The notes under the pieces: generated by a model
What the model saw: the letters and a program-made list of their open reading frames with translations, nothing else
What the model was told of the DNA's origin: nothing
Database searches by the model: none
Position numbers and translations under genes: made by a program
Shown: one piece after another, positions 41,812 to 46,254 of the stretch
Position numbering within the stretch: position 1 is the stretch's first letter
How the letters are laid out: the number at the start of each line of letters is the position of its first letter
NCBI GenBank assembly: GCA_012960305.1
Contig: DUBM01000009.1
Span: forward strand, 66,413-130,412
Length of the DNA stretch: 64,000 bases
Reading direction: 5' to 3'
Origin: Gammaproteobacteria bacterium
GTDB taxonomy: Bacteria > Pseudomonadota > Gammaproteobacteria > Pseudomonadales > Pseudohongiellaceae

Positions 41812-42267
41812 GTGCTGAAAATTAGTGAACTATCCGCCAAGACTGGGCTAACCGCCCATACCTTGCGATTTTATGAGAAGCATGGCCTTATTCAGGCCAG
41901 CACCCGGAGTGAATCCGGCTATCGATATTACAATGCTGCGGATATCCGGCGGGTAGAATTCGTGAAAACAGCCCGGAGCATTGGGTTTTCATTGGAAGAT
42001 ATAAACCAGCTTCTGTCTATTCGTGTTGATAAGCTCAGTCATAGTTGCCAGGAAGTGACAGAAATAACACGAAACAAACTTGATGAAGTGAATGGCAAAA
42101 TAAATGAACTGCAATCTATGCAACAAACCTTACAAATATTGTTGGATAGCTGCTGTGGTGGACCCGAGAGAGCGATTCACTGTTCAATAATGGAAGCGCT
42201 TGATAAAGACCTATTTAGAAACCAAGACAATGAATCTGCATTACAGGCATCGGGGAGAGTAAAATGA
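41812..42267 (+). CDS. MerR family metal-responsive regulator (ZntR/CadR-like)
   Basis: LKISELSAKTGLTAHTLRFYEKHGLIQASTRSESGYRYY; C-terminal CCGGPERAIHCSIMEAL; GTG start. Confidence 0.9.
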   Translation: MLKISELSAKTGLTAHTLRFYEKHGLIQASTRSESGYRYYNAADIRRVEFVKTARSIGFSLEDINQLLSIRVDKLSHSCQEVTEITRNKLDEVNGKINELQSMQQTLQILLDSCCGGPERAIHCSIMEALDKDLFRNQDNESALQASGRVK

Positions 42268-43331
42268 ATCTGGTCAGTATTTTTTGGAATTTAGTAATTG
42301 AAAGTGCACCTTGGTTGCTGATCGGATATCTACTTGCAGGAATAATTAAGCAAGTCATCCCAAATTCCTGGGTCGAAAAACAATTGGCAAAGCCGGGCTT
42401 TGTTTCCGTATTGAAAGGCGCGTTGATTGGAGCGCCAATGCCGCTATGTTCCTGCGGTGTTATACCCACTGCGCTTGCAGTTCGAAAGGCTGGCGCATCG
42501 AAAGGTGCCACTGCTTCTTTTTTAGTTGCTACACCTGAAACTGGTGTAGATTCAATTTCATTCTCCTACGCTGTGCTAGGTCCAATTTTTGCTATTGCTC
42601 GGCCTATTAGCGCTTTGCTTAGTGCAGTTATCGCTGGTGTATTGGTGAATAGCCTGGATAAGGAATCATTCGAAGAAGAAACTGTGGCAGAGGCTAGTAG
42701 TTGCTGTCATAGCAAACTAGCAGTAGGGGTTGAGAATATTCCCCTGAGCCAGAAATTAATCGATGCTGCTAAATATGGCTATGGTCGCATGATTTCTGAT
42801 ACTGCTAAATGGCTTGTTATTGGTTTAGTTGCAGCCACGATAATAACAGCTGTTGTACCCCAGTCATTTTTCTTGCGCTGGGGAGATGGATTGCTTGCAA
42901 TGATTATCATGGTACTAATCGGACTGCCCATGTATATCTGCGCCACGGCGTCAACGCCAGTTGCAGCAGGTTTGTTATTTGCAGGTGTATCACCAGGGGC
43001 TGCATTAGTATTTATGTTGACGGGTCCTGCGACTAATATCGCCACCATGGGAGTGATTAAAGAACAATTGGGTAGTAGATCGCTAATTGCTTATTTAATC
43101 GGGGTTATCGCCACCGCTGTAATTTGTGGCCTGATACTAAACGAATTCTATGCAACCTTCGGCTGGTCCCTACAACTATCTATGATGGAGCATGGAGAGA
43201 GTCATCCCCTGTGGCGTCAATTAGCAGCGGTTCTTCTAGCGGCTCTTGTGGCAAGAGTTTGGATCCAACCATTGCTAGGGCCCAAGGTTGCGACCGACGA
43301 GTCTACAGAGAAACCAGAACTGACAGCGTAA
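42264..43331 (+). CDS. SO_0444-type Cu/Zn efflux permease (DUF318/ArsP-like)
   Basis: APWLLIGYLLAGIIKQVIP; GALIGAPMPLCSCGVIPTALAVRKAGASKGATASFLVATPETGVDSISFSYAVLGP; ATG overlaps the regulator stop. Confidence 0.88.
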   Translation: MNLVSIFWNLVIESAPWLLIGYLLAGIIKQVIPNSWVEKQLAKPGFVSVLKGALIGAPMPLCSCGVIPTALAVRKAGASKGATASFLVATPETGVDSISFSYAVLGPIFAIARPISALLSAVIAGVLVNSLDKESFEEETVAEASSCCHSKLAVGVENIPLSQKLIDAAKYGYGRMISDTAKWLVIGLVAATIITAVVPQSFFLRWGDGLLAMIIMVLIGLPMYICATASTPVAAGLLFAGVSPGAALVFMLTGPATNIATMGVIKEQLGSRSLIAYLIGVIATAVICGLILNEFYATFGWSLQLSMMEHGESHPLWRQLAAVLLAALVARVWIQPLLGPKVATDESTEKPELTA

Positions 43332-44396: not shown

Positions 44397-45593
44397 ATGT
44401 CTTCATCCATGTATTCATCACTGCTAACAGAAAGACCTTTGCTTATTTCACCGACTCTGGCGGCGACAATAGGTTTGGAAGAAGCAGTTATGTTGCAGAG
44501 TCTGTCCGAATTAATTTGTTTTCGTCCCACAATAAAGAATCCCCGCAGAGCCGATTTAAATTGGATTGAGTTAACCGAACAAGAGCTTTTGGATGCCTTT
44601 CCTTTTTGGGCGACCATTGATATTAAGCGAGTGCAGACTAGTTTACAGAATCTTGGCTTAATAGTGCTAGACCAAGCAGACTCCGCGGCAGAAAATTTTC
44701 TCTGTGCAATCGATGAGGTTACAGAATTTCATGCTAAAGAGAGCTACCCCTCTCAGTTTGACACGAACAACTTGACCGCTCGTCCTGTTATTCCTCCAGT
44801 GGAGAAGAAAGCTGTAGCTCAAGTAAGCAGGCCTGCCGGCACTGCCTCATTGATTCCATCCAATTGGAAACCGGGTGTAGATTGGATCAAGCAATGTCGA
44901 CAACACAATATTCCAGAAGCTTTTATATTAGGTTTGGTGGCAGAATTTGTCGGTTATTGGCGAGAACGTGCGCAGGCACGATTCTCCTGGGGTAATGCCT
45001 TTTACAAACATGTCTTAAAAGAGTGGCGTAACGAGCAAACTCGTCAAGGCGCTTTCGAAAAAGCGAGCACCATGTCCGCTGATTGGCACCCCAGTGATGA
45101 TGCGGTGGGTATTCTGGAGAACGCTGGAATAAACCCTAGGTTCATTGAAGATGCGATTCCTGAGTTTGTCTTGTACTGGCGTGAAAGAGGGATGGTGAAC
45201 GGTGCCTGGAATACCAAATTTATAGAACATATACGTCGCCAGTGGGCAAAATTCTCCGCCGCCTTTGGTTACGATGATACACCCAAAGCGATACAAGATG
45301 ATTGGCAACCCAGTGCAGATTGTTTCGAAATTTTGCAGCTTGCAGAAATTGATGAGAATTATGCCAGAAGCAAGATTCCCGAATTCGTCATGTACTGGAA
45401 AGATAGCCAGCAAGTGAAGGCATCTTGGAATACTGTGTTTTTACAGTTCATTAAACAGGACTGGGCACGACAACTAAAACAATTAGAGACAGTGGATCTT
45501 TCTCATGCAGAAAATCAATCCCTTGTTGGATCAAACCAGCAGAGAATTAAAGAGCGATTCCAACGCATCGCTGACCGAAGTTGGGCAGAGTAG
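44397..45593 (+). CDS. DnaT-like replication protein: N-terminal winged-helix-like region plus three tandem DnaT-like domains
   Basis: Repeats WKPGVDWIKQCRQHNIPEAFI..FVGYWRERAQARFSWGNAFYKHVLKEWR; WHPSDDAVGILENAGINPRFI..FVLYWRERGMVNGAWNTKFIEHIRRQWAKF; WQPSADCFEILQLAEIDENYA..FVMYWKDSQQVKASWNTVFLQFIKQDWARQL. Confidence 0.85.
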   Translation: MSSSMYSSLLTERPLLISPTLAATIGLEEAVMLQSLSELICFRPTIKNPRRADLNWIELTEQELLDAFPFWATIDIKRVQTSLQNLGLIVLDQADSAAENFLCAIDEVTEFHAKESYPSQFDTNNLTARPVIPPVEKKAVAQVSRPAGTASLIPSNWKPGVDWIKQCRQHNIPEAFILGLVAEFVGYWRERAQARFSWGNAFYKHVLKEWRNEQTRQGAFEKASTMSADWHPSDDAVGILENAGINPRFIEDAIPEFVLYWRERGMVNGAWNTKFIEHIRRQWAKFSAAFGYDDTPKAIQDDWQPSADCFEILQLAEIDENYARSKIPEFVMYWKDSQQVKASWNTVFLQFIKQDWARQLKQLETVDLSHAENQSLVGSNQQRIKERFQRIADRSWAE

Positions 45594-46254
45594 AGATACT
45601 ACTGATTATGCTGCTACTTCCCCCCGCGACATTGCGGAGCCTAGTGTCGCTTATTCAGCGAGCCCTGACGATAGTGAAGATGCAACTGCTCAAATGGACC
45701 ATGTTGATGCTATCAACCAGGCTTTCGCTGAGTTCGAATTCGCCTACCACAATCAATTTCACAAAGCATTTTCTGATGCCGAAAGCTTGGTAATTGCAAA
45801 GAAGTACTGGTTGAGTTCGCTCGACAATTATGCGCCTAGGCAAATCGTCTTGGCCGCTAAGAAGGTAATAAAAACTCAAGACTATCTCCCGTCTATTGCT
45901 GCTCTGGTTAGAGCCTGTGAAGAAGGTCTTGATCTATTTGGCTTGCCCTCTCCCAGACAAGCCTATCTTGAAGCTTGCCGCGCTGCAGCGCCAAAACGTC
46001 TGCAGAACTGGAGTCATCCAGCCGTTTATCTAGCGGGTGTAGGTGCAGGTTGGTATTTGCTTGCCAACGAAGCTGAGGCCAGCGCATTGCCGGTATATGA
46101 ATACCACTATGGAATTCTATGCAAACAAGTGCTCGGCGGGGGAGAGCTGGGGATTATAGCCCCAGCAGCGTTGCCAGAAAAAACTAGTCGTAAGCTAAGC
46201 AAAAAAGAAACCCAAGCTCGAATAGCAAAAATGCGTTCCGAGCTAGGCTTATAA
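45505..46254 (+). CDS. Phage lambda replication protein P-like putative helicase loader
   Basis: INQAFAEFEFAYHNQFHKAFSDAESLVIAKKYWLSSLDNYAPRQIVLAAKKVIKTQDYLPSIAALVRACEEG...PRQAYLEAC; immediately downstream of and overlapping the DnaT-like gene. Confidence 0.65.
   Translation: MQKINPLLDQTSRELKSDSNASLTEVGQSRDTTDYAATSPRDIAEPSVAYSASPDDSEDATAQMDHVDAINQAFAEFEFAYHNQFHKAFSDAESLVIAKKYWLSSLDNYAPRQIVLAAKKVIKTQDYLPSIAALVRACEEGLDLFGLPSPRQAYLEACRAAAPKRLQNWSHPAVYLAGVGAGWYLLANEAEASALPVYEYHYGILCKQVLGGGELGIIAPAALPEKTSRKLSKKETQARIAKMRSELGL

Follow-up and report, generated by a model that had tools for sequence, protein, structure and literature searches.

The locus raises the question of what two overlapping genes with the look of phage replication genes are doing in a bacterial chromosome. 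They lie in a window of 64,000 nucleotides, the whole stretch of DNA analysed, and the source genome (3.1 Mb, 97% complete) has OM182 and Pseudohongiella as its nearest named relatives. The initial annotation had suggested that they may be a domesticated, phage-derived helicase-loading module. We refer to the genes as dodA and dodB and give their coordinates in Table 1. Both frames are open on the same strand as annotated, and their overlap is conserved. Comparison with relatives gave an in-frame ATG at 44409, beside the ATG at 44397, as an alternative dodA start.

Table 1. Features of the dodA-dodB locus, in window positions
Feature	Position	Strand	Description and basis
dodA	44397..45593	+	398 aa; winged helix of phage O/DnaD type, then three DnaT domains and C-terminal DRSWAE tail
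N-terminal winged-helix region of dodA	44409..44681	+	phrog_6493, residues 5-95; phage tblastn; weak fold match
DnaT domain 1 of dodA	44865..45041 (limits approximate)	+	PF17948 and alignment with relatives
DnaT domain 2 of dodA	45069..45260	+	G000:C9:111481-111672, E 1.1e-24
DnaT domain 3 of dodA	45288..45485	+	G000:C9:111700-111897, E 4.9e-22
C-terminal tail D-R-S-W-A-E, proposed DodB-docking peptide	45573..45590	+	motif conservation in DodA and phage O
dodA/dodB overlap (dodA end, dodB start)	45505..45593	+	89 nt, different frames; ORF coordinates, conserved in relatives
dodB, lambda P-type replicative helicase loader	45505..46254	+	249 aa; Pfam, PHROG, fold
PF06992 Phage_lambda_P region of dodB	45712..46035	+	residues 70-177

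The second protein had been likened to the lambda replication protein P. In Pfam, DodB passed the PF06992 Phage_lambda_P cut-off only barely (26.6 bits against 26, E 6e-6), and lambda P was missed when PDB sequences were searched by profile, where the sole match was a weak one to G39P (E 0.11). The assignment therefore leans on PHROG and on the fold. DodB residues 54-247 matched phrog_109, the 'P-like helicase loader', at 1.3e-18. The AlphaFold model, built from 21 relatives with a mean pLDDT of 78, had as its best PDB fold the lambda P protein bound to DnaB of E. coli (9oa1_Z, 1.7e-4, probability 1.00). The top matches were chains Z, Y and V of 9oa1, with a global TM of only 0.31-0.34, the protein being extended. 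P proteins of Pseudomonas phages also matched DodB (3e-16), and the proposed resemblance was thus upheld by profile and by fold.

The DnaT-like repeats of DodA were recovered by Pfam as three PF17948 domains (210.5 bits, cut-off 25, E 2e-63). Its N-terminal region of about 90 residues, read earlier as a winged helix of replication-protein type, matched phage DnaD/O-like initiators in PHROG (phrog_6493, 1.5e-7; phrog_11233, 1.1e-6), which agrees with that reading. The predicted fold (AlphaFold) was weakly nearest to the plasmid Rep winged helices 4pql, 4pt7 and 5kbj, and phage O/DnaT-like proteins were found to be relatives of DodA by phage tblastn. Pfam gave no match to PF05258 (DUF721/DciA) and no DnaC-type AAA+ domain in either protein, and no defence-system match was found for the pair.

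Most relatives retain the order glyK-dodA-dodB-ettA-glyA and show no phage genes there, so the absence of phage genes noted around the pair extends to them. As for the named neighbours, ettA stands, while the label 'glyK' is that of the initial annotation, whose 'glycerate kinase-like' gene upstream of dodA scored above cut-off with no Pfam model. Further upstream (window 41812-43331), genes for a MerR-type regulator and a permease are conserved beside the pair in the genus. The pair is not always linked. In three genera (g2, g3 and g8) dodA follows alr-radA, separate from dodB; at one such relocated dodA (L040) a confirmed dnaB lies immediately upstream of alr. Loss of dodB in these genera was ruled out, as it was found elsewhere in the genome, near ettA in most loci read. 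Both genes are retained where they are unlinked. Two genomes carry, besides the chromosomal dodAB, prophage O/P-like pairs amid phage genes (L121 in G033, L122 in G034), and the P proteins of these prophages branch close to DodB.

In most of the sampled families DodA consists of the winged helix and three DnaT domains. Families f6, f7 and f37 have the winged helix and one DnaT domain, and in f2, f9 and f34 DodA is a protein of about 150 residues with one DnaT domain, apparently without the winged helix. The pair may have been domesticated twice, once in f6, f7 and f37 and once in the other families. In one tree of DodB and phage P proteins, prophage P sequences fell between the DodB of the one-DnaT group and the rest with an SH-aLRT of 97, but a single DodB clade was not rejected by the AU test when three long branches were left out (p 0.45). 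We regard two domestications as a possible history, and the less probable one.

The C-terminus of DodA is conserved: all 108 distinct chromosomal DodA proteins carried [DN]-x-[SDN]-W within their last 25 residues, as DRSW in 89. With the pattern [DN]-x-[SDTG]-W in this stretch, the count was 151 of 158 DodA-like frames, duplicate loci included, against 15 of 1013 other long frames in the DNA that was read. Of the seven DodA-like frames lacking it, six were phage proteins. The possibility that the tail is a by-product of the dodB overlap was ruled out, since unlinked dodA keeps it while unlinked DodB is without the overlap-encoded TEAGQ. Its persistence in unlinked dodA shows that the tail belongs to the protein itself.

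Phage O proteins have a comparable end. Lambda O terminates in NTDWIYGVDL, which resembles the DodA ends TDRSWA and TDTSWADSL. Among 18 phage O-type proteins encoded beside a P gene, 11 carried [DN]-x-[SDG]-W near the end and two (MD8, STDW; 24E35.2, ESDW) looser forms recognised after looking; these counts are not independent, as the sample was hand-picked from BLAST hits to annotated phages and contains several close relatives. Four others had a different tryptophan tail, W-N-[ST]-x-E-x-W, and PHB09 had none. In the same hand-picked set, none of the five O-like proteins without a P neighbour carried the tail. Independent support comes from the lambda Oam29 mutant, which yields 294 of the 299 residues and is defective (PMC6022878); O thus cannot do without its last five residues. 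The COOH-terminal region of lambda O has been described as P-binding (PMC6022878).

From these sequence comparisons we infer that the tail is the O/DodA docking peptide for P/DodB, retained after domestication. In its wider form the proposal is that D-x-[S/D]-W is a conserved O-to-P docking peptide from lambda to DodA-DodB, even where the genes are unlinked, and that O/DnaT tails are swappable adaptors which set the class of loader, D-x-S-W for P/DodB and PPGFRG perhaps for DnaC. We consider this wider form slightly favoured by the evidence. The DodA tail might instead bind DnaB, SSB or PriA and not DodB, given that contacts with replication hubs are often made by C-terminal tail peptides. Yet the phage tail accompanies a neighbouring P gene and is missing in the five O-like proteins without one, and in lambda O it sits at the end that holds the essential last residues, in the region described as P-binding. 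We think such another partner unlikely.

Tails of a second type were also seen. E. coli DnaT ends in SEPDSQIPPGFRG, and nearly the same last 13 residues are found in the O-like proteins of two coliphages, mEp460_ev081 and 640R1, neither of which shows an adjoining P gene; between 640R1 and mEp460 the match was confined to the tail in our search. The O-like protein of Klebsiella phage ST147 ends in PAGFRS. The loci of the DnaT/O-like proteins with PPGFRG-type tails are L205 4979-5518, L191 2507-3472, L206 1493-2563 and L192 2507-3421.

The initial annotation had called for a genome search for dciA and dnaC, and neither was recognised in the source genome. PF05258 gave no dciA match, and in place of dnaC only partial PF01695 matches were found there, in frames of about 511 and 807 residues, sizes which suggest DnaA and Lon. 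Full-length IstB-type PF01695 matches were sporadic among relatives. A search with E. coli DnaT across the class gave one weak locus.

We surveyed 59 genomes of the family and 296 of the order. In the family, dodB was present in 59 of 59 genomes, DnaT in 58 and dciA in one. We doubt that this dciA (L002, genome G039) truly coexists with dodAB: it lies, adjoining an apparent M23-type peptidase gene, on a contig of 2,078 bases in a genome of 250 contigs and is probably from a contaminant. In the order, 182 genomes had DnaT and DodB, 93 had dciA, none had all three and 21 had neither system (formal p = 8e-57, a value inflated by relatedness, although the label follows whole families). Every genome with dodA or dodB alone had dciA. 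These were five of the 296, with either DnaT or a weak P match, and the single proteins look like phage copies. In families f35 and f43 dciA scored weakly, which suggests a divergent form of the gene there, and part of the 21 genomes with neither system probably have a dciA missed at the thresholds used. Five genomes of family f34 (G170, G091, G147, G121 and G192) gave four to nine P-like matches each, probably from several prophages or duplicated loaders.

This distribution bears on whether the pair could serve replication restart only, as PriA-DodA-DodB in the manner of PriA-PriB-DnaT-DnaC, with oriC left to another factor or to DnaA and DnaB alone. DnaT domains are known from restart, and PriA is present, while PriC was not found and no PriB scored above cut-off. 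Against this, none of the 296 genomes sampled carries the pair along with the initiation factor dciA, and E. coli DnaC performs both jobs. A role in restart only would also leave oriC without a known loader, as the searches recovered neither dciA nor a recognisable dnaC, and we judge it improbable. A leftover prophage replication module, decayed or fallen silent, would suit two phage-type proteins and the true prophage O/P-like pairs elsewhere in L121 and L122, but with no adjoining phage genes, the same bacterial neighbours in most relatives, frames intact in nearly all genomes, dodB in every family genome and both genes kept after separation, synteny and universal retention rule it out for practical purposes.

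We therefore favour, with a probability of roughly 0.87, that in this lineage the pair serves as the helicase-loading module of the chromosome, derived from a lambda-like O-P pair, homologous to dodA/dodB and working as follows. DodB would bind hexameric DnaB and open the ring as lambda P does, judging by its family and fold, and DodA would take the place of O. The DnaT domains of DodA, like E. coli DnaT, would bind single-stranded DNA or form filaments on it, and its winged helix would bind DNA or another replication protein. The D-x-S-W tail would hold DodB, and DodB-DnaB would thereby be brought to oriC and to stalled forks marked by PriA. The reading of a domesticated phage-derived module has thus held, given the lambda P family and fold of DodB, the O-type N-terminus of DodA, the lack of a prophage, the joint occurrence of the two proteins, the exclusion of dciA and the failure to find dnaC. 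The initial annotation had named as evidence against itself a lack of any profile or structural match to lambda P, or a prophage around the pair in related genomes; we found such matches and no such prophage.

The layout has parallels in known systems. Like lambda O-P, the genes are adjacent and overlapping, and the loader has the P-type fold; unlike O, DodA contains DnaT domains, and its winged helix is a different one. The lambda origin lies inside O, whereas no iteron-like repeats were found in dodA, and a lambda-style origin within dodA was thus ruled out. As in E. coli dnaT-dnaC, a gene with DnaT domains directly precedes the helicase-loader gene, but DnaC belongs to the AAA+ proteins and has no relation to P, and the DnaT of E. 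coli, with only 179 aa, has PPGFRG as its end. A domain of SPP1 G39P superposes on the DodB model (1no1, TM 0.80 by target, 2.1 A), although G39P is much shorter and its similarity in sequence is weak, as given above. DciA shares the presumed role, with a distribution mutually exclusive with that of the pair, but belongs to the unrelated family PF05258. The DodA-DodB layout also has a precedent among phages: E. coli O157 typing phage 9 and ZX5 (L194, L195) encode a DnaT-like primosomal protein immediately ahead of P.

Cellvibrionales were singled out as the only order lacking both dnaC/I and dciA, and the replacement was asked for (Brezellec 2016, PMC5109545). The pair described here fits this gap. 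Brezellec and co-workers reportedly filled it in 2017 by the 'domestication of lambda phage genes' (GBE 9:1561, evx111). In that system dodA reportedly stems from O and dodB from P, and the hosts have neither dnaC/I nor dciA. We take the window pair to be this dodA/dodB, as a Pseudohongiellaceae-type member: the genes are adjacent, chromosomal and related to O and P, they co-occur strictly across the order apart from the five dciA genomes with one protein alone, the host is without dciA, and no dnaC/dnaI was found. As far as can be told, the two show no substantive difference. The pair is a member of the published system, and since it fits the gap of 2016 that was filled in 2017, the helicase-loader reading is right and not new. 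What appears to be new is the move of dodA behind radA in three genera and the D-x-[S/D]-W tail common to DodA and phage O, to which we add the classes of DodA architecture across families.

Loading of DnaB is the essential commitment step of bacterial replication, and its loaders have repeatedly been replaced by phage genes. Among Gammaproteobacteria, a large and mostly marine group has this pair as its replacement. A 2026 paper on the preprimosome called the DnaT-type recruitment of the helicase-loader complex unknown (PMC13377028). For that recruitment, as for the handover from lambda O to P, the shared tail would offer a prediction the size of a peptide.
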